In this document: positions 4,686-38,150 of the stretch, piece by piece
How positions within the stretch are numbered: position 1 is the first letter of the stretch
Layout: every line of letters starts with the position of its first letter
From: Paracoccaceae bacterium
GTDB taxonomy: Bacteria > Pseudomonadota > Alphaproteobacteria > Rhodobacterales > Rhodobacteraceae
NCBI GenBank assembly: GCA_011620265.1
Contig: WOZM01000134.1
Location: 1 to 40,840 of the forward strand
Length of the DNA: 40,840 nt
Reading direction: 5' to 3'
Notes under the pieces: generated by a model
The model's input: the letters and a program-made list of their open reading frames with translations, nothing else
Told to the model about the DNA's origin: nothing
Database searches by the model: none
Made by a program: the position numbers and the translations under genes

Positions 4686-5609
4686 TCACGGGATGACGCA
4701 GGGAGAGGCAATCGGTTCGCCCGGCATGGGGCGTGGGTACATCGCCTTGAACCGGACGGGACCGGATCCGTTGCCGGCATCCTGGTCCCTCCGGTTCTTC
4801 ACAACGGCCTGGCGCGCCAGTCCGGCTTCCATCAACCCATCGTGGCTGCCACAATCAAAGCGCCTTCCGGAAAAGCGGAAGGCGGTGAGCGTGACGGAAC
4901 CGGCGTCGTGCGCGATCGCGTCAGTGAGTTGCAGTTCGTTGCCAGCGCCGGGTCGGGTCGCCGCAAGGGTCGGGAAAATGACCGGATCAAGAATGTACCG
5001 GCCAACGGCTGCAAGTCGGGACGGAGCCTGGCCCACCGGCGGCTTTTCGACCATCCCGCTCACCGGCACGGAGCGCCCGTGGCCCGAATTCTTCAGCGAA
5101 AAGATGCCATAACACTGCGTTTCGGCCTCACCGACCTCCATCGCGGCGATCATGTGGCCGCCGGCATAGGCTTCGGTCATTTCCGCGAGACACGATTCGC
5201 CCATGATGATGTCATCGGGCAAAATAACCGCAATGGGTCCGGGCAAGACCAGGTCGCGGCAGCAGAGGATCGCATGGCCCAGGCCGAGCGGCTGGCTCTG
5301 GTTGACAAAGACGACCTCCATCGACGGCGAAAACTTGAGATCGGAAAGAACATCCGCAAGACCATGCTTTCCGCTGCTTCTGTCGGTGCAGGGATATTCC
5401 GACTCGATGTAGGACCGGATTGCGGCTTTGGACGGATGTGTCACGATCACCACGCGCTCTACTCTGGCGGCAATGGCTTCATCCAGGGCAAACTGCAGAA
5501 CGGGTCGATCATAAACGGCCAGCAGTTCTTTCGGCGTCGCCTTCGTTGCGGGAAGGAGACGGGTTCCTTGGCCTGCCGCAGGTATCAGCACCGTTCTGAT
5601 CTTCTTCAT
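4686..5609 (-). CDS. galU: UTP-glucose-1-phosphate uridylyltransferase
   Basis: A 307-residue nucleotidyltransferase that makes UDP-glucose from UTP and glucose-1-phosphate in the cytoplasm. Residues 10-30 carry the GalU nucleotide-binding signature (AAGQGTRLLPATKATPKEL). Later come VVFVNQSQPLGLGHAI (uridine/sugar site), LPDDII (metal Asp) and SGMVEKP. Start ATG 5609 has GGAG 8 bases upstream; GTG 5618 is in frame but would overlap that site. It is divergent from the cyclic glucan synthase operon, whose substrate is UDP-glucose, so supply of that polymer is its probable local job. The minus strand has GGAAC-N16-CGTT at 5650-5674, about 41 bases upstream of the start. Confidence 0.93.
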   Translation of the reverse strand: MKKIRTVLIPAAGQGTRLLPATKATPKELLAVYDRPVLQFALDEAIAARVERVVIVTHPSKAAIRSYIESEYPCTDRSSGKHGLADVLSDLKFSPSMEVVFVNQSQPLGLGHAILCCRDLVLPGPIAVILPDDIIMGESCLAEMTEAYAGGHMIAAMEVGEAETQCYGIFSLKNSGHGRSVPVSGMVEKPPVGQAPSRLAAVGRYILDPVIFPTLAATRPGAGNELQLTDAIAHDAGSVTLTAFRFSGRRFDCGSHDGLMEAGLARQAVVKNRRDQDAGNGSGPVRFKAMYPRPMPGEPIASPCVIP

Positions 5610-5649
5610 CGGGGTCACTCCATTCTCGCCAAGCCGGCGTGCAAAAGGA

Positions 5650-5674
5650 AACGCGGAAACTCAAGCAAAGTTCC
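5650..5674 (-). promoter_or_regulatory. EcfG-type promoter candidate for galU
   Basis: On the minus strand, GGAAC (complement at 5670-5674) is followed after exactly 16 bases by CGTT (complement at 5650-5653). This is the GGAAC-N16/17-CGTT form recognised by EcfG, the general stress sigma factor of alphaproteobacteria. It would start transcription about 30-35 bases before the galU ATG. A matching element on the other strand faces the glucan synthase operon. Confidence 0.5.
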
Positions 5675-5746
5675 CGCCTGTCAGAGACGGCGCGAACCCG
5701 CCGCGAATGCGCGTCGGAGTATCAGGAGCATGAACCAAAGACATGG

Positions 5747-5766
5747 CGGGCCTGAAAGCAGGCCCG
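5747..5766. other. GC-rich hairpin between the divergent promoters
   Basis: CGGGCCTG and its exact complement CAGGCCCG flank a 4-base AAAG loop. There is no T-tract, so it is not a typical intrinsic terminator. It lies between the two outward-facing promoter candidates. The rest of 5610-6066 holds no gene I can support; it is locally AT-rich around 5790-5850. Confidence 0.5.
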
Positions 5767-5945
5767 GCGCTGCGCGAATTTCCGTCAGCCGATCACCATT
5801 CATCTATGTAGTCGTAGCACAAAACGCTACCCTTCCATCGAAAATTGATGCATGGTTTCCGCAATTGCTTTCGGCCCCTGCCGACATCGCGGCAACCCAC
5901 CGACATCTGATTTGTGTGAGGGTCTGGCGGAAGTCGGGCCTTCTC

Positions 5946-5970
5946 GGAACTCATTCGAACCCCGAACGTT
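5946..5970 (+). promoter_or_regulatory. EcfG-type promoter candidate for glucan synthase operon
   Basis: GGAAC at 5946-5950 and CGTT at 5967-5970 are separated by exactly 16 bases, matching the alphaproteobacterial general-stress (EcfG) promoter form. It faces the ORF at 6067 and the glucan synthase, with a leader of about 90 bases. A TTGACA at 5970-5975 overlaps the element, but I see no good -10 box at a sigma70 distance. Confidence 0.5.
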
Positions 5971-6066
5971 TGACACATAGGTTCCAGCGTAACTGCTGGC
6001 CGAAATGCGCACGACTGATTGCGCAGATCTTCGGTCGGCGTCGTTCAGTCATGAAAGGAGCGCGAC

Positions 6067-6546
6067 ATGGTCGAAGGACTACGTCCGCCGAAAGGCGATA
6101 TCACCCTTCACCTTGGCCCAGCAATCGACAAGCCGCGGGACAAACCCGGCGCCGCTCCGAGCGGGAAAGATCCGGGCGCCGGCAGCATATCCGGGGTTGG
6201 AGAGGAAATCCGTGCCGTGCCCTTCAATGCGAGCCGCGCAACCGCGGGAGGGTCAGGCCCGAAACGGCCTTTGAATCCATTCAAGCTCCATGTCCGTGAC
6301 GTCCGTGCGCATGAGGGCGACTTCAGCGCCGTTGACCGGAGCAGCAGGCCATCCGAATGCAAGCCCTCCGACCGCAAGACTCACCGCATCGGATGGGAGC
6401 AGATCGAGCTCAAATGGGCTGCGATGACCAGTCGGGTTCAGTGCGGCCCGTCTCTGCGCGCCAAGGCGCCACCTTGCCGCCCGCTATCGGAAGGGCAGCC
6501 TGAGTCGACCGATGCCGCCAAGCCCAAAGCGCCGCCGGTCAGGTGA
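6067..6546 (+). CDS. Hypothetical 159-residue protein upstream of glucan synthase
   Basis: I do not recognise this protein. It is rich in Pro, Gly, Lys, Arg and Ser, has no membrane segment or signal peptide, and looks largely disordered, with a Pro/Ala/Lys C-terminus. Two points support translation: AGGAG at 6056-6060 lies 6 bases before ATG 6067, and its stop overlaps the GTG of the glucan synthase (GTGA at 6543-6546), an arrangement expected for coupled translation. Against it, third-position GC is lower than in neighbouring genes and the composition is unusual. It may be a small accessory or regulatory protein, or only a leader ORF. Confidence 0.4.
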   Translation: MVEGLRPPKGDITLHLGPAIDKPRDKPGAAPSGKDPGAGSISGVGEEIRAVPFNASRATAGGSGPKRPLNPFKLHVRDVRAHEGDFSAVDRSSRPSECKPSDRKTHRIGWEQIELKWAAMTSRVQCGPSLRAKAPPCRPLSEGQPESTDAAKPKAPPVR

Positions 6547-9500
6547 GCCGCCGAATGCTGCGGGACATGGCGCGGGCGATGCAGTGGCGCCGGTATGCCC
6601 TGAACCCATGGCAGGACCGGGCTCCGATCCGGTCCGATCTCTTCGGGGTCGAGCGGCTGGAGCATCACGCCCGCAGCCTGGCATTGGCGCAAACGGTCAC
6701 AACGGGTCGCCCGGTCCGGGTTCCGTCCCTTGCGGTCCGTCTGAAAGAGAACGCCTCGGTCCTGCTTGACGCGTATCGTTCCTCGGCGCGCGCGCTGCAG
6801 GCAGGCAAGACCGTCACCCCCGCTGCCGAATGGCTTTTGGACAACTACCACCTCGTTGAACAGCAAGTGAGGCAGATCAAGGATGATCTGCCGCCGAAAT
6901 ACTATCAACAGTTGCCGAAGCTTGCCGATGGCCCCTTCGCGGGCTACCCCCGCGTTCTTGGGCTGGCTTGGGCGTATGTCGCCCACACCGACAGCCTTGT
7001 GTCGCGTACGTCCCTCGTACGTTTTGTCGATGCCTATCAAACGGTCCAACCGCTGACGATCGGCGAGATCTGGGCGGTTGCCATTACTCTGCGCATCCTG
7101 CTGGTCGAGAACATGCGGCGGCTGGCCACCGAAATTTCCGAAGGCCAGATCCTGCGCGGAACGGCCGACGAACTGGTCAATCGTGTGATTGGCACCGGGC
7201 AGTTGCCTTCGGAAACTCGCAATCCGGCCCTCTCCGCCTATGACACCCTCGATCTGCCCGAGATCATGACCGCCCAGATGGCCAAACGGTTGCGCGGCTT
7301 CGACCCTGCCGAGACCCCGTTGCGTGTCTGGCTGGAGGACAAGCTCAGGCGTCAGGGTTCGTCGCTCGAAATGACCATCCTGAACGCGCAAACGCGGCAG
7401 GCTGCCACGAATGTGTCGATGCGAAACGTCGTCACCTCGATGCGCCTCGTTTCCGAAGTGGACTGGGCCGATTTCTTCGAAGAGGTGAGCCTGATCGATG
7501 CGCGGCTGCGGGAGAGCACCGGTTTCGCCGACATGGACTTCGTCACGCGCAACCGGTACCGCACCGCGATCGAGGATCTCGCGCGCGGGTCTGGCCTGAG
7601 CGAGATTGCCGTGACGGAAGAGGCCATCGCGCTTGCGGCTGGCAACGCGGACGAGTTGTCGCGGGATCCGGGTTTCAACCTCATCGGGCCGGGCCGCAGC
7701 GCGCTGGAGCAGTCGGTCCGCTATACGCCACCTCTGCGCCTAAGGGCACTCCGGTGGACCATGCGACTTGGGCTGCGCGGCTATCTCGGCGCGATAGCCA
7801 CTTGTTCGGTTGCAGTTCTGGCAGCCGCGATCTGGGTGACGGGAGCGGCAGGTGCAGGTGCTTTCGCCCTTGCCGTTCTGGCGCTGACTGGGTGGGTCGT
7901 GGCAAGCGAGGCTGGGTCCGCTCTGGTCAACCTGATTGTCACACGATCGGTGGGTCCGACGCCGCTGCCGGGCCTGGACCTGCTGGACGGCGTCCCCGAA
8001 CACCTGCGCACGATCGTCGCAGTCCCCGTGATCCTGACTGGCGTCCCGGATCTCGAGCAGCAACTGGAACGGCTTGAGGTGCATCACCTGTCGAGCGCGG
8101 ATGGTGCGCTGCACTATGCGCTTCTGTCTGATGGACCGGACTCGCCGAGCGAAACAACCGATCACGACGACGCCCTGATCGCGGCGGCCGTCGCGGGCAT
8201 CGCCCGGCTGAACGCCACATACCCCTCCGAGAACGGCGACCGGTTCCTTCTTCTGCACCGTCGTCGGAAATGGAACGCCGCGGAAGGGTGCTGGATGGGG
8301 TGGGAGCGAAAGCGCGGAAAGCTGACCGAACTCAACCGCCTTCTGCGCGGTGAAACGGATACGAGTTTCCTCTCATTGGGCAGACCCGCGCCGTTTGTCC
8401 CGGCCGGGGTGCGCTATGTCATCACGCTGGACGCCGATACGCGCCTTCTGCGCGACACGGTGCGGCGGATGATCGGCAAGATGGCGCATCCGCTGAACCG
8501 TCCGATCTTCGATCCGGTCAAGCAGAGGGTGACGCGAGGCTACGGGATCCTGCAGCCGCGTGTTACGCCAGCCCTTCCAGTCGCTGAAGAAGGCTCTGTC
8601 TTTCAGCGGGTGTTTTCCAGCCCCGGCGGCATTGAACCCTACGCGGCGGCGATCTCGGACGTGTATCAGGATCTGTTCGAAGAAGGCTCGTTCACGGGCA
8701 AGGGGATCTACGACATCGATGTGTTCGAGGCCGCACTATCGGGGCGTGTTCCGGAAAACGCGATGCTCAGCCACGACCTGTTCGAGGGCATCTTTGCCCG
8801 CGCGGCTCTGGCATCCGACATCGAGGTGGTCGAGGATTTTCCTGCCCGCTTCGACGTGGCTTCGCAACGCCGGCACCGTTGGACACGAGGCGACTGGCAA
8901 CTCTTCCCCTGGATCTTCGGCCCGAACCGGACCGACCGTGGCGGCATCCCCGCCATCGGCTGGTGGAAGATGGTCGACAATCTGCGGCGATCCCTGGTCG
9001 CCCCGATGACGCTGGCCACACTCTTCACGGGCTGGCTCTTGCCCTTGCCGGTCGCGGCGGCCTGGACGGGCTGCATTCTGGCGGTCCTTGCTCTGCCGAA
9101 ACTCTGGGCGCTTCCCTTTGCCATCCTGCCGGGGCGTGCAGGCATCACCGCGCGTAGCCACTTCGTCGCTTTTGCATCCGACGCCGCCACCGCGGCCGCC
9201 CAGATCGCGCTGACCGTGGTATTTCTTGCCGATGCTGCCTGGCGGATGCTTGACGCCATTGCGCGCAGCCTCGTGCGGCTGGCCGTGACCCGCCGCAACC
9301 TGCTGGAGTGGATGACGGCTGCGCAGGGGGCCAGCAGCGCATTGCCCGACATCGCCGGATACTACCGTTCGATGGCGGGTGGAGTTTTCCTTGGTCTCGG
9401 CACCTGCGCGCTTGCCATCTCGGTCAATCCGGGGATCTGGCCCGTCGTGGTCCCGCTGGCGCTGCTCTGGCTCGCCGCGCCCGCCATTGCGCAGATCGTC

Positions 9501-12500
9501 AGCAGACCCTGCGCCGCAAGGAACGTCGCCCCCCTGTCCGAGGCCGAAGCCCGCAGAATGAGGCTCATCGGGCGTCGAACGTGGCGATACTTCGAGACCT
9601 TCGTGACCGAGGCGGACAACTTCCTTCCGCCGGACAACTTCCAGGAAGTGCCGAAGCCGGCGATAGCGCACCGCACATCGCCGACGAATATCGGCCTCTA
9701 CCTGCTGTCAACGGTCGCGGCCCATGACATGGGCTGGATCGGATTGGGTGATGCGCTCGACCGGCTGGAACGGACCCTCACCACGATGCAGCGGATGCCG
9801 AGGTTCCGGGGGCACCTCTACAACTGGTATGACACCCGGGATCTGCGTGTCCTCGACCCGCCCTACATCTCGTCGGTCGACAGCGGCAATCTGGCGGGCC
9901 ACCTCATTTGCCTGTCGCAAGCCCTGCTCGACTGGCGCACGGCTTCCCCTGATGGTGCACAGGGGCTTCTCGATACGATACAACTCGCGCAGGAAGCGGC
10001 CGATGACGCGGGGCTTTTCGAAACCGGATTCCGGGCCACGCTGACGCAACTGGCGGATGCGCTCGCGGACCAGAGCGCGCTCGGCGATCCGGAACTGGCG
10101 CCACTTGCCGCACGTGCCACTGATCTCGCGAACGCGATTGCCGATCCGGATTCAGATCTCGTTTTCTGGACAACTGCCGTTGAGACCTGTCTTGCAGGGC
10201 ATCAGGCGGCCGCCGCCGGCAATGACGAACTTGGCCGGCGGCTCGACCAGCTTGCACAACTGGCCCACCGCCTCGCTGCGAAGATGGAGTTCGGCTTCCT
10301 GCTGGAGCCGGAAAAGAAGCTGCTTTCCATCGGCTTCTCGGTCGCGACAAACACGCTCGATCCCAGTTGCTACGACCTCATGGCGTCAGAGGCCCGGCTG
10401 GCCAGCTTCTTTGCCATCGCGAAGGGCGACATCGAGACGCGTCACTGGTTCCGGCTGGGCCGGGCGACGACGCCGATCGGCGCCGGGTCGGCCCTCATCT
10501 CATGGTCGGGCAGCATGTTCGAATACCTCATGCCCTCGCTCGTCATGCGTTCGCCCGTCGGCTCGGTTCTGGAAGAGACCAATCGCCTGATCGTGGCGCG
10601 GCAACAGGCGCATGCTAAGTCGATCGAGACGCCTTGGGGCATATCGGAATCCGCCTACAACGCGCGCGACCTGGAAATGTCCTACCAGTATTCGAACTTC
10701 GGCGTTCCCGGTCTGGGGTTGAAGCGCGGGCTTGGCGAGAACCGGGTGATCGCGCCCTATGCCACGGCACTTGCCGCGATGGTCGACCCGGTGGCCGCCG
10801 TCCGCAACTTTGCGCGCCTTGCCGCGCTGGGCGCCGAGGGCCGTTTCGGATTCTTCGAGGCCCTGGATTACACCCCTGCCCGCCTGCCCGCCGAGGCAAG
10901 TTTCGCCATCGTCCGAAGTTTCATGGCGCATCATCAGGGCATGACGATCACTGCGATCGCCAACGTGCTTCTGCACGGCTGCCTGCGCGACCGCTTTCAT
11001 GCCGAGCCGATGATTCAGGGCGTCGATCTTCTTTTGCAGGAACGGGTTCCGCGAGACGTGGCAACGGTCCATCCCCGCGCGGAAGAGGTGCTGGTCAGCC
11101 CGGTCGAGACCAGCGACATTCCGATCGTCCGCCGGTTCGACAACCCGGCCGCTGCGGCGCCGACCGCGCATCTGTTGTCGAACGGCACCTACGGCGTGAT
11201 GGTGACACCCACGGGCGCCGGGTTCAGCAACTGGCGCGACATGGCTGTCACCCGCTGGCATGCCGACCCGACACGGTCCGATCTCGGTTCGTTCATCTTT
11301 GCCCGGGACACGGCATCGGGCGAACTCTGGTCGGCGGGGGTGCAGCCGAAACGGGACGAGGCCGAGCGTCACAGGGCTGTCTTCTGCGAGCATCACGCGG
11401 CCTTCACGCATCAGGGCAGGCGATTGACGACCACGACGGAAATCGTCGTTTCCGCCGAAGATGACGCGGAGGCGCGGCGCGTCACCTTGACGAACTCAGG
11501 TCGTACCGCGCGCGAAGTCGACCTGACATCATATGCGGAACTCGTGCTGGCCCCGGCGGCCGCCGATCTGGCCCACCCGGCATTCTCGAAGATGTTCGTC
11601 GTGACCGACTTCATGCCCGAGCTTGGCGTCATCATCGCCACGCGCCGCAGAAGATCTCCGCAAGATCCCGAAGTCTGGGCCGCCCATATCGCTGTCGTCG
11701 AGGGAATCGAGACCGCGCCGATCCAGGTGGAGACGGACCGGGCGCGCTTCATCGGCCGCGGTCGCAGTATCGACACGGCCCAGATGCTGAACGCGCCCCT
11801 TTCGGGAACCGTGGGAACCGTGCTCGACCCAGTATTCTCGATCCGACGGCGTGTCAGTATTCCCGCAGGCGGCATGGCAAGGGTCACGTTCTGGATCATG
11901 GTTTCGGCGTCACCCGATCTGCTGCTGGATCAGGTCGAGCGCCACAGCGATCCATCGGCTTTCGACCGGGCCGTGACGCTGTCCTGGACCCGGGCGGAGG
12001 TGCAATTGCGCCATTTGGGCGTCACTCACGCAGAGGCCTCGGACTTCCAGCGACTGTCGGGCGCCCTCATCCGCAGCGAAGCGCGGCTACGTGCATCCGC
12101 GGCGCAGATCTCTGCCGGGGCCGGTCCTCAGTCGGGTCTTTGGCAACTGGGAATCTCGGGCGACCTTCCGATCATCCTTCTGTTGATTGAAGACCCAGAA
12201 GACATGGCCCATGTGAACGAGATGCTCAGCGCCCATGAATACTGGCGCATGAGGCAGTATCCGGTCGATCTGGTCATCCTCAACGAACGGTCGTCGTCCT
12301 ACATTCAGGACCTGCAGATTGCCATCGAAACGGCCGTTCGGTCGGCACAGACGATTCCACGGACAGAGGGCCGGCACGGAACGCTGAAAGGGGCGATCCA
12401 CACGTTGCGGGCCGATCTCGTCGCACCCGAGGCGCGCGCGCTTCTGATTGCCGTGGCGGGGGCCGTTCTCGTTGCGGGTCGCGGCAGCATCGGTCAGCAG

Positions 12501-15011
12501 CTTGACGGCATGGCGTTGTCCTCCCCGGATCTGGCACGCGAGCCACGAGCCCGGCGCACGCCTGTGGCGGTGTCGAAGGAGGTGCCGCTCGAACTGGAGT
12601 TCTTCAATGGCATCGGCGGCTTCGCCGACAATGGGCGGGAATACGTCACCGTGCTCCGTGACGGCCAGAGCACGCCGGCCCCCTGGATCAACGTGATCGC
12701 CAATCCCGGCTTCGGATTTCTGGTTTCGGCAGAGGGCACGGGCCACGTCTGGGCCGAGAACAGCCGTGAGAACCAGATCACGCCCTGGTCGAACGACCCC
12801 GTGTGCGACCCTTCGGGCGAAGCGATCTACATTCGCGATCTGGACAGTGATCAGGTCTGGACCACCACCGCCCGGCCGGTCCGGACCGAGGGCACCTATG
12901 TCGCGCGTCATGGCTTCGGATACAGTTCCTTCCAGCACGGGTACGACGGGCTGGAAGGCGAAATGGTGCAGTTCGTGCCGCTGGACGAACCCGTGAAGAT
13001 AACCCGTCTGACGATCCACAACACATCGAACCGCACCAGACGGGTTGCAGCCACTGCCTATGTCGAATGGGCGCTGGGCCCGTCGCGCCAGCGGACTGCA
13101 TCCTTCGTCACGACCGAGATCGACCCGCCTACCGGAGCGATCCTTGCAAGAAATCCCTGGAGCATCGCCTTTCCCGGCCGCGTCGCGTTCGCCGATTTCG
13201 GGGCCGGCACCACAAGCCGCACTGCCGACCGCACCGAGGTTCTCGGCCGGGATGGAAGCATGGCTGATCCGGCAGGCCTCAGAAAAGCTGAACTCTCGGG
13301 GGCAAGCGGACCCGCTCTCGACCCCTGCGCCGCCCTGCAGCGCCACATCACGCTCGCGCCGGGCGCGCGGACCGAGGTCGTGTTTCTGCTGGGTCAGGCT
13401 GCCAGTGCCGATGACGCCCGTGCACTGATCCTGAGGATGCGCGCGACGGATCCGGGCGACGTGCTGGCCCGGGTGAAGCGTCATTGGGACGGCTTCCTGA
13501 CGACCGTGCAGGTGCGATCGCCGGATCGCGCGATGGATATCATGCTGAACGGCTGGCTGCTCTATCAGACGCTTGCCTGCCGCATCTGGGCACGCGCCGG
13601 ATTCTATCAGGCCAGTGGAGCGTATGGCTTCCGCGATCAGTTGCAGGACGGTATGGCGCTGACTTTCAGCCGGCCCGAGATGACGCGCGAACACCTGTTG
13701 CGTGCGGCATCCCGACAGTTCCCCGAGGGCGATGTGCAGCACTGGTGGCTGCCGCATTCGGGCCAGGGAGTGCGGACCCGGATATCCGACGACCGGGTCT
13801 GGCTCGGGTATTGCGCGGCCCACTACGTCCGGGTCTCGGGCGACGTGGGCGTTCTGGACGAGGTGTTGCCCTTCCTCGAAGGCCCGGCGGTCGACCCCGG
13901 CGCGCACGACAACTTCTTCCTGCCCACGCGGTCGGAGCGGACCGCCACGCTTTTTGAGCATTGCGCCCTGGGTCTGGACATGGCCATCGCGCAGACCGGG
14001 GCCAACGGCATGCCGCTGATCGGCACGGGCGACTGGAACGACGGGATGAATCGTGTCGGCGAGGCTGGTGCCGGAACGAGTGTCTGGCTTGGCTGGCTCC
14101 TGATTGCGGCCATTGACCAGATGGCCCCACTTGCCGATCCCCGCGACCGGGTCCGCGCTGCCCGTTGGCGCGCCCATGCGTCAGCGGTGCGCGAGGCGAT
14201 CGAACGCGAGGGATGGGACGGTGAATGGTATCGGCGCGGCACCTATGACGATGGCACGATCCTTGGAACGGCGGCGTCAGAAGAATGCCGCATCGACAGC
14301 ATCGCCCAATCCTGGGCGGTCCTGTCGGGTGCGGCCGAACCGACGCGCGCCGCGACTGCAATGGCGTCCATGACAAGGCATCTCGTCCGGGCCGATTCCG
14401 GTCTGGTGCTGCTGTTCACACCGCCCTTTGACCGGACGCCGCTCGACCCCGGCTACATCAAGGGCTACCCGCCGGGTCTGCGCGAAAACGGAGGACAATA
14501 CAGCCATGCGGCGATGTGGGCGATTCTTGCCCAGGCGCGTCTGGGCAACGGGGATGCGGCGGGTGAACTGTTCGCGCTCCTCAATCCGATCAACCACGCC
14601 ATGACTCTTTCGGATGCGGCGCGCTACAAGGTCGAACCCTACGTGATTGCCGCCGATGTCTATTCAACTGCCCCGCACGAGGGTCGCGGCGGCTGGACAT
14701 GGTATACAGGGTCCGCAGGCTGGATGTACCGGGCAGGAATCGAGGGGCTGCTGGGGCTGACGCGATCCGGGCAGACGTTGACGGTCGACCCGTGCTTCCC
14801 GAAAGCCTGGCCAAGGCTGGAAGCAACCGTTTCCCTGGGCGCGAGCCGGGTCGAAATCATCATTGAAAATCCCCAGCGGACGGGCTGCGGTATCTTGTCC
14901 GCGGAGTTGGACGGCGTCGCTATCGTCAGCGTCGGCGGCCCGGTGAGCATAAGCCTCTGTGACCATGCACATCGGCTGAACATTCGTCTCGGACCGGCGG
15001 CATCTTCGTGA
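6543..15011 (+). CDS. ndvB: Cyclic beta-1,2-glucan synthase (NdvB/ChvB/Cgs)
   Basis: A giant inner-membrane enzyme of 2822 residues, close to the usual 2800-2870, that polymerises UDP-glucose into beta-1,2-glucan and cyclises it. Order of parts: N-terminal GH94-associated region (about 26-390), membrane helices (about 413-475), GT84 catalytic domain (about 490-800) with DAD at 630-632, a later acidic motif MLSHDLFEG and RRHRW at 776-780, further helices (about 818-985), a glycoamylase/GH144-like cyclase region (about 1005-1500), then two GH94-type beta-sandwich segments (from about 1540 and 2015) and the C-terminal GH94 (alpha/alpha)6 domain with GTGDWNDGM (Asp2497, Asp2500), which trims chain length by phosphorolysis. 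GTG 6543 is the longest start; ATG 6555 has a better site (AGGTGAG, 7-base gap). No exporter gene (ndvA/chvA type) lies in the window. Confidence 0.95.
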   Translation: MSRRMLRDMARAMQWRRYALNPWQDRAPIRSDLFGVERLEHHARSLALAQTVTTGRPVRVPSLAVRLKENASVLLDAYRSSARALQAGKTVTPAAEWLLDNYHLVEQQVRQIKDDLPPKYYQQLPKLADGPFAGYPRVLGLAWAYVAHTDSLVSRTSLVRFVDAYQTVQPLTIGEIWAVAITLRILLVENMRRLATEISEGQILRGTADELVNRVIGTGQLPSETRNPALSAYDTLDLPEIMTAQMAKRLRGFDPAETPLRVWLEDKLRRQGSSLEMTILNAQTRQAATNVSMRNVVTSMRLVSEVDWADFFEEVSLIDARLRESTGFADMDFVTRNRYRTAIEDLARGSGLSEIAVTEEAIALAAGNADELSRDPGFNLIGPGRSALEQSVRYTPPLRLRALRWTMRLGLRGYLGAIATCSVAVLAAAIWVTGAAGAGAFALAVLALTGWVVASEAGSALVNLIVTRSVGPTPLPGLDLLDGVPEHLRTIVAVPVILTGVPDLEQQLERLEVHHLSSADGALHYALLSDGPDSPSETTDHDDALIAAAVAGIARLNATYPSENGDRFLLLHRRRKWNAAEGCWMGWERKRGKLTELNRLLRGETDTSFLSLGRPAPFVPAGVRYVITLDADTRLLRDTVRRMIGKMAHPLNRPIFDPVKQRVTRGYGILQPRVTPALPVAEEGSVFQRVFSSPGGIEPYAAAISDVYQDLFEEGSFTGKGIYDIDVFEAALSGRVPENAMLSHDLFEGIFARAALASDIEVVEDFPARFDVASQRRHRWTRGDWQLFPWIFGPNRTDRGGIPAIGWWKMVDNLRRSLVAPMTLATLFTGWLLPLPVAAAWTGCILAVLALPKLWALPFAILPGRAGITARSHFVAFASDAATAAAQIALTVVFLADAAWRMLDAIARSLVRLAVTRRNLLEWMTAAQGASSALPDIAGYYRSMAGGVFLGLGTCALAISVNPGIWPVVVPLALLWLAAPAIAQIVSRPCAARNVAPLSEAEARRMRLIGRRTWRYFETFVTEADNFLPPDNFQEVPKPAIAHRTSPTNIGLYLLSTVAAHDMGWIGLGDALDRLERTLTTMQRMPRFRGHLYNWYDTRDLRVLDPPYISSVDSGNLAGHLICLSQALLDWRTASPDGAQGLLDTIQLAQEAADDAGLFETGFRATLTQLADALADQSALGDPELAPLAARATDLANAIADPDSDLVFWTTAVETCLAGHQAAAAGNDELGRRLDQLAQLAHRLAAKMEFGFLLEPEKKLLSIGFSVATNTLDPSCYDLMASEARLASFFAIAKGDIETRHWFRLGRATTPIGAGSALISWSGSMFEYLMPSLVMRSPVGSVLEETNRLIVARQQAHAKSIETPWGISESAYNARDLEMSYQYSNFGVPGLGLKRGLGENRVIAPYATALAAMVDPVAAVRNFARLAALGAEGRFGFFEALDYTPARLPAEASFAIVRSFMAHHQGMTITAIANVLLHGCLRDRFHAEPMIQGVDLLLQERVPRDVATVHPRAEEVLVSPVETSDIPIVRRFDNPAAAAPTAHLLSNGTYGVMVTPTGAGFSNWRDMAVTRWHADPTRSDLGSFIFARDTASGELWSAGVQPKRDEAERHRAVFCEHHAAFTHQGRRLTTTTEIVVSAEDDAEARRVTLTNSGRTAREVDLTSYAELVLAPAAADLAHPAFSKMFVVTDFMPELGVIIATRRRRSPQDPEVWAAHIAVVEGIETAPIQVETDRARFIGRGRSIDTAQMLNAPLSGTVGTVLDPVFSIRRRVSIPAGGMARVTFWIMVSASPDLLLDQVERHSDPSAFDRAVTLSWTRAEVQLRHLGVTHAEASDFQRLSGALIRSEARLRASAAQISAGAGPQSGLWQLGISGDLPIILLLIEDPEDMAHVNEMLSAHEYWRMRQYPVDLVILNERSSSYIQDLQIAIETAVRSAQTIPRTEGRHGTLKGAIHTLRADLVAPEARALLIAVAGAVLVAGRGSIGQQLDGMALSSPDLAREPRARRTPVAVSKEVPLELEFFNGIGGFADNGREYVTVLRDGQSTPAPWINVIANPGFGFLVSAEGTGHVWAENSRENQITPWSNDPVCDPSGEAIYIRDLDSDQVWTTTARPVRTEGTYVARHGFGYSSFQHGYDGLEGEMVQFVPLDEPVKITRLTIHNTSNRTRRVAATAYVEWALGPSRQRTASFVTTEIDPPTGAILARNPWSIAFPGRVAFADFGAGTTSRTADRTEVLGRDGSMADPAGLRKAELSGASGPALDPCAALQRHITLAPGARTEVVFLLGQAASADDARALILRMRATDPGDVLARVKRHWDGFLTTVQVRSPDRAMDIMLNGWLLYQTLACRIWARAGFYQASGAYGFRDQLQDGMALTFSRPEMTREHLLRAASRQFPEGDVQHWWLPHSGQGVRTRISDDRVWLGYCAAHYVRVSGDVGVLDEVLPFLEGPAVDPGAHDNFFLPTRSERTATLFEHCALGLDMAIAQTGANGMPLIGTGDWNDGMNRVGEAGAGTSVWLGWLLIAAIDQMAPLADPRDRVRAARWRAHASAVREAIEREGWDGEWYRRGTYDDGTILGTAASEECRIDSIAQSWAVLSGAAEPTRAATAMASMTRHLVRADSGLVLLFTPPFDRTPLDPGYIKGYPPGLRENGGQYSHAAMWAILAQARLGNGDAAGELFALLNPINHAMTLSDAARYKVEPYVIAADVYSTAPHEGRGGWTWYTGSAGWMYRAGIEGLLGLTRSGQTLTVDPCFPKAWPRLEATVSLGASRVEIIIENPQRTGCGILSAELDGVAIVSVGGPVSISLCDHAHRLNIRLGPAASS

Positions 15012-15208: not shown

Positions 15209-15943
15209 TCATTTCAGAAGCGGCCCGGTCTGATCCAGATATGCAGGATCGAACTCGGCGAGATCCACCAACCCGCAGTAGTCGTGAAACGTCACGTGGC
15301 CGTCCCGAAACGTCACCAGCCCGCGTTCGCGAAGCTGCCGCAGGACGCGGTTCACATGGACCGCGCTTAACCCCAGCGTATCGGCGAGGTGGTACTGCGT
15401 GAGCGGGCAGTCGAACCCCTCTTTTCGGCCCATACCCACCAGCGCGAGCCGCGACCCGAGCTCGAGCAGGAAATGCGCCATGCGGGCGTCCGCATCGCGC
15501 CGGCCGATCCCTACGAGATGCTCCACGACCATCGCCTCGTCCCTTGACGCCGCCCAGAGAATTGCGGTCGCCAGGCGAGGGCTCTGCGCGAACGCTGCGA
15601 GAAGGTCGCCCGCCGTGACTTCGGCGGCCTCAATGTCCACGATGGGCTCGAAGCTGTGATCCGAGGTGCGCAAGAGAACGCTCCGCAACCCCAGAAAATC
15701 TCCAGGCACCTGAAAATCCACGATCTGCCGCGTCCCGTCGGCCTGCACCTTGTAGGAACAAACCCAACCCGCGGACAGAATGTAAGCCGCCTGGGCCGAC
15801 TGGCCCTGATGCACCATATCGCGGCCAGCCACAAAGGATCGGCGGCGCTGGTGCAGTCGTTCAAGCACGGCCCGCTCCACCTCCGACAGGGCGACGAAGG
15901 CCGAGAGCTTGCGGGTAAGGGGGCTGTTCGCCACGATGTTCAT
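15209..15943 (-). CDS. Crp/Fnr-family transcriptional regulator
   Basis: A 244-residue regulator: an N-terminal cyclic-nucleotide-binding-like beta-barrel (about 10-120, with AAYILSAGWVCSYK and VPGDFLGL), a dimerisation helix (about 125-160) and a C-terminal winged helix-turn-helix (about 181-220: LTQYHLADTLGLSAVHVNRV then RQLRERGLV). It lacks the N-terminal cysteine cluster of oxygen-sensing Fnr and is closest to the broad group of Crp-type regulators of unknown ligand in alphaproteobacteria. ATG 15943 has a GAGGGG site upstream. It is divergent from the 76-residue protein and desaturase genes, which are the obvious candidate targets; that is inferred from position only. Confidence 0.9.
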   Translation of the reverse strand: MNIVANSPLTRKLSAFVALSEVERAVLERLHQRRRSFVAGRDMVHQGQSAQAAYILSAGWVCSYKVQADGTRQIVDFQVPGDFLGLRSVLLRTSDHSFEPIVDIEAAEVTAGDLLAAFAQSPRLATAILWAASRDEAMVVEHLVGIGRRDADARMAHFLLELGSRLALVGMGRKEGFDCPLTQYHLADTLGLSAVHVNRVLRQLRERGLVTFRDGHVTFHDYCGLVDLAEFDPAYLDQTGPLLK

Positions 15944-16106: not shown

Positions 16107-16337
16107 ATGCCCGACCAGACGGATCATGCCGGCATGGCGGCTCTCTCGATCTGCGAGGCGCTTCTGCTCGCGATGAACGATCACAAGCTGATGCCCGAGC
16201 ACGAGATCGTGGGAGTTCTCCGCGATGCCGCAGCGACCCACAAGAACGCAATCGGCCCCAAGGCGGAAACGCATCGGGCGGTTGCGGCACTCATTGACCG
16301 GATCATCGCTGGCGGCAACTCCGTTCGGAGGCCGTGA
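16107..16337 (+). CDS. Small conserved-looking protein, 76 residues
   Basis: I do not recognise a named family. The protein is soluble, mostly helical by composition (AALSICEALLLAMNDHKL, then EIVGVLRDAAATH and AVAALIDRIIAGG), and has no signal peptide or cysteines. AAGGA at 16093-16097 sits 9 bases before ATG 16107. It is the first gene of a probable pair with the desaturase (37 bases between) and is divergent from the Crp-type regulator. A small regulatory or partner role is possible but not shown. Confidence 0.72.
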   Translation: MPDQTDHAGMAALSICEALLLAMNDHKLMPEHEIVGVLRDAAATHKNAIGPKAETHRAVAALIDRIIAGGNSVRRP

Positions 16338-31160: not shown

Positions 31161-31568
31161 ATGAACGACTGGCTGGGGCGCACCGCGCCCGATCTCGACA
31201 CGATCGAAACCATGGCGCGGGCGACCGTCGCCGACCTGCCGCCGCATTTCGCCGGCCCCGCCGGGGCGATCCTTCTCCGCATCGCCGATTTCCCGCCCGA
31301 GGATATTCTCGACGACATGGATGTCGGCGACCCGTTCGAGCTCACCGGCCTCTACGACGGCATCCCGATGACCGAGAAGTCGGTGATGGATGTCGTCGAC
31401 CGGCCCGACACGATCTGGCTCTTCCGCCGGCCGATCCTCGACGAATGGGCGGAGCGGGGCGACGTGACGCTCGGCCAGCTCGTCGCCCATGTGATGATCC
31501 ACGAGCTTGCCCACCATTTCGGCTGGTCCGACGATGAGATCGCCGAGATCGACCGCTGGTGGGAATAG
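31161..31568 (+). CDS. Zincin-like metallopeptidase family protein
   Basis: A 135-residue protein with a HELAHHFGWSDDEI motif near the C-terminus, the HExxH zinc site of the small Zincin_1 (PF06262-type) family found in many bacteria. The substrate is unknown, and proteolytic activity of the family is largely predicted. AAGGAG at 31149-31154 lies 6 bases before ATG 31161. It is divergent from gltX and ends 6 bases before the convergent pfkB stop. Confidence 0.87.
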   Translation: MNDWLGRTAPDLDTIETMARATVADLPPHFAGPAGAILLRIADFPPEDILDDMDVGDPFELTGLYDGIPMTEKSVMDVVDRPDTIWLFRRPILDEWAERGDVTLGQLVAHVMIHELAHHFGWSDDEIAEIDRWWE

Positions 31569-37142: not shown

Positions 37143-38150
37143 TCAGCGGCGCGGGCGAGGTGCGGCCACCGGACGCGTGCCCATGAGCAATTTGAAGCCG
37201 CCGTCGCCGCCGATCTCGGCAACCTCGCGGAAGTGCCTTGCCAGCACCGCCTCGTAGGGCAGATGCCGGTTCGCGACCATCCAGAGCCGGCCCGACGGCG
37301 CCAGCATCGCCGCCGCCGCCGCGATGAAGGCGGCGCCGAGCGCCGGCTCGGCGGCGCGGCCGGTATGGAAGGGCGGGTTCATGATCACCGCGTCGACCGG
37401 CGCCTCGGGGCGGAAGCGGGTCGCATCCTCCCAGTGGAAGCGGGCGCGGGGATCACCGATGTTGCGCCGCGCGCAGTCGAGCGCGGCGCGGTCGGCCTCG
37501 ACGAGGTGCAGGACCTCGACGCCCGGCCGGGCGAGGATCTGCGCCGCGAGCCAGCCCCAGCCGGCGCCGAGATCGGCGATCCGTGCCGGCAGCCTGTCGG
37601 GCAGCGCGGCGGCGAGAAGGGCGGAACCGTGATCGACCTTCTCGGCCGAGAACACGCCGGGCCGGGTGACGAAGCCCGGCGCCGGGATCAGGTCCGCCGC
37701 GCGCCAGTCGTCGAAACGCGGGCCGGCATCGAAGCGGAAGATCTTGCCATGCGCCTTCGCGATGGGCGCCGACACGGCGGTGCGGGCACGGATGTCCTTC
37801 AGCATCGTGTCGACGCCGTCGGTCTTCTGCCCGTCGATCCAGACCGGCCCGCCGGGATCGACCCGGCACGCGGCCTCGGCCACGAGCGCCCGGGCGGCGG
37901 CGCGGGCACGCGGCACGAAGACGACCGACGCGGCAAAATCGCCCGTGGCCTCCGACACCGACGGCACCACCGTCCAGCCCCGCGCGGCAAGGGCGTCGTG
38001 ATCGGGGCGGAAGCCCTGCACGATCACCGCCCGCGCCTGCGGCAGATCGGACAGATCGGTCGCGGCCCCCGGCCCGAGCACCAGAACCCGCCCCGACGGA
38101 GGCAACGCATCGGCGCCCTGAAGCGCGAGGGAAAGTCTCGGATGGGTCAT
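37143..38150 (-). CDS. RsmC-like SAM methyltransferase
   Basis: A 335-residue protein with the two-half layout of RsmC/RlmG rRNA guanine methyltransferases: a degenerate N-terminal methyltransferase-like half (about 1-150) and a C-terminal catalytic half with the SAM motif IADLGAGWGWLA (about 190-201) and the catalytic NPPFHTG. It probably methylates a guanine in 16S or 23S rRNA. It lies 19 bases downstream of the site where clpS transcription would come in on the same strand, so the two may form an operon with clpS first in reading order reversed: this gene is upstream of clpS. Confidence 0.85.
   Translation of the reverse strand: MTHPRLSLALQGADALPPSGRVLVLGPGAATDLSDLPQARAVIVQGFRPDHDALAARGWTVVPSVSEATGDFAASVVFVPRARAAARALVAEAACRVDPGGPVWIDGQKTDGVDTMLKDIRARTAVSAPIAKAHGKIFRFDAGPRFDDWRAADLIPAPGFVTRPGVFSAEKVDHGSALLAAALPDRLPARIADLGAGWGWLAAQILARPGVEVLHLVEADRAALDCARRNIGDPRARFHWEDATRFRPEAPVDAVIMNPPFHTGRAAEPALGAAFIAAAAAMLAPSGRLWMVANRHLPYEAVLARHFREVAEIGGDGGFKLLMGTRPVAAPRPRR

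Follow-up and report, generated by a model that had tools for sequence, protein, structure and literature searches.

Putative EcfG general-stress promoters at a cyclic glucan synthase operon and a galU-like gene in a Rhodobacteraceae bacterium

We analyzed a DNA stretch of 40,840 nucleotides from a Rhodobacteraceae genome (hereafter, the window), in which two exact copies of GGAAC-N16-CGTT lie on opposite strands between a galU-like gene and an operon for a cyclic glucan synthase (cgs). From the sequence of the window, its genome and its relatives, we propose that both elements are probably EcfG general-stress promoters, which would drive the galU-like gene leftward and an operon of a small open reading frame (ORF) and cgs rightward. 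Taken separately, EcfG control of the cgs operon appears very probable, and EcfG control of the galU-like gene appears likely. Under stress, PhyR takes NepR off EcfG. In this bacterium, stress would thus lead PhyR to remove NepR from EcfG, and polymerase carrying EcfG would bind both elements, transcribing leftward a second galU-like gene that may supply UDP-glucose, and rightward an operon encoding a conserved small protein and the synthase; the product may have a role in envelope or osmotic protection. This would be a recurrent regulatory link of an ordinary kind, in which an operon new to a known regulon is added, and the undescribed small protein is its more interesting part. If it is true, then the general stress response in Rhodobacteraceae is tied directly to periplasmic glucan.

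Putative promoter elements between the galU-like gene and the cgs operon

The features concerned, in order of position, are as follows.

4686-5609, minus strand: GalU-like UTP-glucose-1-phosphate uridylyltransferase, second copy in the genome (Pfam NTP_transferase)
5650-5674, minus strand: EcfG-type promoter element GGAAC-N16-CGTT, exact match, 40 nt ahead of the galU-like start codon and overlapped by a hairpin
5653-5677, minus strand: inverted repeat with a T-rich tail, overlapping the minus promoter element (-16.3 kcal/mol for 5640-5685)
5946-5970, plus strand: EcfG-type promoter element GGAAC-N16-CGTT, exact match, 96 nt ahead of the ATG at 6067
6067-6546, plus strand: small ORF of 159 aa, whose C-terminal part from 6388 corresponds to the conserved small protein that relatives encode ahead of cgs
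6543-15011, plus strand: cyclic glucan synthase gene (cgs), 2822 residues, with GH94 domains

Both elements occur in the intergenic region 5610-6066 (457 bp), 271 bases apart, and each has a spacer of exactly 16 bases, as an earlier note on this DNA had reported. They fit the EcfG promoter form (GGAAC at -35, 16-17 bases and (C)GTT at -10), and each precedes a gene at a short distance and in the right orientation (gaps of 40 and 96 nt). The earlier note had also let each element point at its own gene. This holds for the minus element and the galU-like gene, but the first gene behind the plus element is the ORF 6067-6546 and not the synthase; this small ORF, the status of galU as a second copy and the hairpin over the minus site had all been missed. 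The reading of the motif as the EcfG form agrees with published forms: promoters in Rubellimicrobium were predicted from GGAAC-N16-17-C/GGTT (PMC12148442), and GGAAC-N17-20-GTT was derived in Sphingomonas (PMC6599016). The genome therefore resembles the alphaproteobacterial PhyR-NepR-EcfG systems in GGAAC, 16-17 bases and CGTT shortly before genes, together with a complete cassette, but differs from those in the papers listed in its putative target, a cyclic glucan synthase.

The number of matches in the window is not striking. With spacings of 15-18, there are three GGAAC/CGTT matches against 1.26 expected, and three or more occurred in 12 of 100 shuffles; the third exact match, with spacing 15 (6701-6724, minus strand), falls within the synthase gene, and we attribute it to chance. 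Nor is the motif enriched genome-wide (87 matches, against 147 for the reversed pattern), and we rejected such enrichment as support. It is the placement that makes the pair unusual, and not the number: among 200,000 first-order Markov copies of the intergenic region, an exact site with a 16- or 17-base spacer arose on the plus strand in 1001, on the minus strand in 1207 and on both in 41, some of which may be overlapping palindromes. The earlier note had likewise argued that two correctly oriented copies are unlikely to arise by chance. The low genome-wide count, and the position of most other sites inside predicted genes (see below), would agree with both matches being chance; however, the rarity of such pairs in the simulated regions, and the top ranking of the element among bipartite words upstream of this operon in relatives, make this hardly credible.

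The overlap of the minus element with the inverted repeat introduces another question. It is conceivable that the plus element alone is an EcfG promoter, serving the small ORF and cgs, and that the minus element is a chance match in an inverted repeat, with galU on another, unrecognised promoter. The hairpin favors this reading, and the region holds two terminator-like sites against 0.7 (sd 1.0) in shuffles. However, a minus-strand site arose in only about 0.6% of the simulated regions, the hairpin would sit upstream of the predicted minus-strand start near 5643, and no minus-strand gene that it could end was seen between the hairpin and 6066. On the last two grounds, we rejected the hairpin as a true terminator and keep it as a caution. 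A search of 5550-6150 for competing sigma70-type promoters found none, although only 0.2 were expected, so that this absence is weak evidence and is not used as support. A perfect 8-bp GC-rich hairpin also occurs in the middle of the intergenic region (5747-5766).

The PhyR/NepR/EcfG cassette and EcfG-type sites

The genome contains the complete phyR/nepR/ecfG cassette that the earlier note had proposed to look for. On contig C187, NepR (59.9 bits) is followed directly by an ECF sigma factor (NF009198, 308.5 bits, cut-off 270); PhyR is encoded on the other strand (356.8 bits, cut-off 240), and a HisKA_2 kinase is also present. EcfG, NepR and PhyR are thus all encoded in the same genome as the window; other sigma-70-family genes are present as well. 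NepR is patchy in the genus, occurring in 12 of 21 same-genus genomes (E 1e-5 or better). In Rhodobacter sphaeroides, the cassette has been described with a role in membrane stress (PMC5830050).

We found 45 exact sites with 16- or 17-base spacers in the genome, 12 of them on C187 (23.2-38.3 kb), two in the window and 31 elsewhere. Ten of the 12 on C187 lie 26-87 nt ahead of checked start codons, and the EcfG promoter form is therefore visible within the same genome. The genes that they precede encode a ferritin-like (Dps) protein, NepR, PhyR, a phospholipase D-like protein, CsbD, an AI-2E-type transporter (for which we chose a TTG start), a PLDc_N protein, a DUF1328 protein and two nameless proteins. 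Genes such as these are typical EcfG targets. Two of the ten sites lie between phyR and nepR in a divergent arrangement like that of the pair in the window. As for the remaining two, no gene is evident behind the site at 31225, and the presumed start codon behind the site at 37384 turned out not to be one. The region C187:22000-38300 as a whole has the appearance of a general-stress island, with the cassette, many stress-type genes and exact EcfG-type sites over about 15 kb.

The 31 sites outside C187 and the window are divided into 23 inside genes and eight between genes, and two of these eight are correctly oriented and at most 250 nt ahead of a gene; these labels are approximate, being derived from a simple codon-usage script that sometimes picked the antisense frame. 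The pair in the window is among the few sites that are placed like promoters.

Recurrence of the site before cgs in relatives

We searched 21 other genomes of the genus for cgs and did not find it. In a sample of the family, it occurs in 36 of 394 genomes, including the window's own; the 37 matches gave 30 loci (one being the window's own), and seven matches returned no locus. A short ORF lies directly ahead of cgs in 23 of the 29 relatives' loci fetched, and also in all seven named loci that we pattern-searched (Cypionkella, Marivita, Tabrizicola, Rhodovulum, Pseudorhodobacter, Tropicimonas and a Rhodobacter MAG, the last being a genome already counted among the 23).

Within 300 nt upstream of the small ORF and cgs, eight of the 34 loci from relatives have the exact element on the coding strand, and one has it on the opposite strand. 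This count leaves out L105 and L172 (one genome, less than 200 nt upstream), the seven matches without a locus and the named Rhodobacterales L067 and L078 (no exact site within 600 nt), and it includes L159 with 157 nt upstream only. Since some of the loci may be close relatives (L051/L154, L092/L174), the 34 are not fully independent. Seven of the 28 small-ORF loci have the exact element, which places it at the top of 360 letter-permuted motifs (the next had two, and the mean was 0.09). When spacings from 10 to 25 were scanned, six loci had the element at 16, one at 17 and one at 10, and none at any other spacing. A motif-free search of the coding strand for words of 5+4 bases over the same spacings ranked GGAAC-N17-GTTG first (8/28) and GGAAC-N16-CGTT second (6/28), the two words overlapping each other. 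With any NGTT ending allowed, a site is present in 14 of the 28 loci, and about half have neither form. The recurrence before the small-ORF/cgs pair in relatives indicates that the link to cgs recurs across Rhodobacteraceae.

In addition, we looked for exact coding-strand sites within 600 nt of cgs in a broader set, using 68 of 80 loci (12 were dropped owing to short upstream DNA or uncertain taxonomy). Such a site was present in two of 36 loci from other alphaproteobacteria, in none of 24 from other bacteria and in none of the eight named Rhodobacterales loci. The contrast between groups is weak here; the exact site of Tabrizicola lies beyond 600 nt from cgs, ahead of galU. In two relatives, the region that separates the small-ORF/cgs operon from a divergently transcribed gene has a site on each strand: both are exact in L288 (genome G410), and L092 has an exact minus site and a plus site ending in TGTT. 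We suspect that the divergent neighbors in these two loci encode PRC-barrel proteins.

If the sites serve EcfG, then their relation to the cassette in other genomes is of interest. PhyR and NepR are jointly absent from eight cgs genomes examined (G032, G090, G142, G173, G287, G427, G065 and G066), with completeness of 86% for G090 and 89% for G287. Among the 28 small-ORF loci, there was no correlation with the presence of phyR/nepR: the exact site occurs in 6 of 22 loci with them and 1 of 6 without, and any NGTT ending in 11 of 22 and 3 of 6. Co-occurrence was therefore discarded as proof. This lack of correlation would fit a reading in which an ECF sigma factor other than EcfG serves the elements; the further sigma-70-family genes in the genome would provide candidates, and G173 has an exact site but neither PhyR nor NepR, its closest EcfG relative being only 28% identical. 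However, an EcfG-like sigma factor is present in two of the three NGTT exceptions without PhyR and NepR (50% identity in G032 and 46% in G066), and in the window's own genome the same promoter form lies ahead of stress-type genes near ecfG, phyR and nepR among them. We consider a different ECF factor to be very improbable. In G032, the EcfG-like gene lies near two GGAAC-N16/17-TGTT sites, and the TGTT ending also occurs before cgs of that genome, although this is a single case.

The galU-like gene, the small ORF and glucan synthesis

The product of the galU-like gene scores 236 bits against TIGR01099, under the equivalog cut-off of 326.8, and we therefore call it GalU-like. The other copy in the genome, at C298:24392, is 47% identical to it, and no EcfG-type site was found in the 3.8 kb examined at that locus. 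We surveyed the neighbors of cgs in 28 upstream stretches, 20 of them extended (from the 29 loci of relatives) and 8 named. L063 and L284 have a related galU next to cgs and in the same orientation, and L093 has one in two frames; the divergent arrangement is found in the window only. In the Tabrizicola locus L063, an exact site with a 17-base spacer lies 37 nt ahead of galU, and in L093 an AGTT variant precedes it. L284 (G173) has no site ahead of galU, and its exact site overlaps the galU frame at the 3' end, ahead of the small ORF. Thus, of the three relatives in which the galU next to cgs is usable, the first carries an exact site ahead of galU, the second a variant, and the third no site.

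These results bear on the reading in which only the plus element is a promoter. The uniqueness of the divergent arrangement and the siteless galU of G173 speak for it, and the exact and variant sites of L063 and L093 speak against it; together with the position of the hairpin, they lead us to regard it as unlikely. EcfG control of galU, as one half of our proposal, is plausible from two exact cases (the window and Tabrizicola) and one variant. The comparison with relatives suggested in the earlier note supported the site before the small ORF and cgs and gave a mixed result before galU. The note's prediction that UDP-glucose and cyclic glucan synthesis form one general-stress regulon unit is likewise well supported for cgs and weaker, though plausible, for galU. 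The recurrence of the site on the sugar side in relatives suggests that the glucan is made as part of the stress response, and if this is true, then some genomes may keep a second galU to feed the synthase. We also observed galU-like fragments beside cgs in L282 (G306) and L276 (G287), as if lost from a once-linked cluster.

The synthase itself resembles NdvB, with residues 65-2790 matching the solved structure 8rf0 over its full length (2538 bits) and with GH94 domains, but the Rhodobacteraceae synthase differs in the overlapping small ORF ahead of it. The known control of the glucan exporter gene ndvA in Sinorhizobium also differs from the one proposed here, its reported activator being FeuP, and not a stress sigma factor (PMC3616915). 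Rhizobium etli ndvA goes down under salt shock and up under heat shock (PMC4167512), which indicates that stress induction of cyclic glucan genes is no general rule. Among the literature matches listed, as judged by titles and the beginnings of abstracts, there was no report of EcfG control of a cyclic glucan synthase, although an entry in a supplementary regulon table could be missed in this way.

The small protein has 55-80 aa in relatives and begins with M-x-W-D-Q-I-E-x-K-W-x-x-M-T-R-R, in which W3, I6, W10, M13 and R16 are invariant among 30 sequences. Three codons are used at I6 and five at R16, and this variation at invariant residues speaks for selection on the protein. In the window, ATC replaces the usual initiating ATG, and the reading frame continues upstream without a stop as far as the ATG at 6067, which is preceded by AAAGGAG. 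The small ORF and cgs overlap by GTGA in the window; in 29 relatives the last bases are GTGA (23), ATGA (2), TTGA (2) or CTGA (2), so that the cgs start can overlap the small-ORF stop and the two genes may be translationally coupled.

No Pfam family matched the small protein above chance, and the window protein, queried alone, had no match in NCBIfam. Its first 26 residues resemble the CsbD family, aligning with the genome's own CsbD at an hhalign probability of 89.8 in a single comparison picked after the likeness had been noticed. However, the rest of the protein is variable, and PF05532 (CsbD) was matched by none of the 30 members at E values up to 10, in a search in which HMMER filters drop most weak matches. 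We therefore rejected membership in the CsbD family and keep the N-terminal likeness as a lead. A tentative idea, which we hold to be possible but doubtful, is that this protein, with its CsbD-like N-terminus and GTGA coupling, is an undescribed stress-induced partner or regulator of the synthase, through which the general stress response would control the glucan by protein as well as by transcription. If this is true, then the small protein is a candidate partner of the glucan synthase. Beyond cgs, a gene at 15209-15943 (minus strand), which we take to be Crp-like, and a gene of about 77 residues with a similar start at 16107-16337 (plus strand) also recur near cgs in L051, L274 and L275, as judged by eye.
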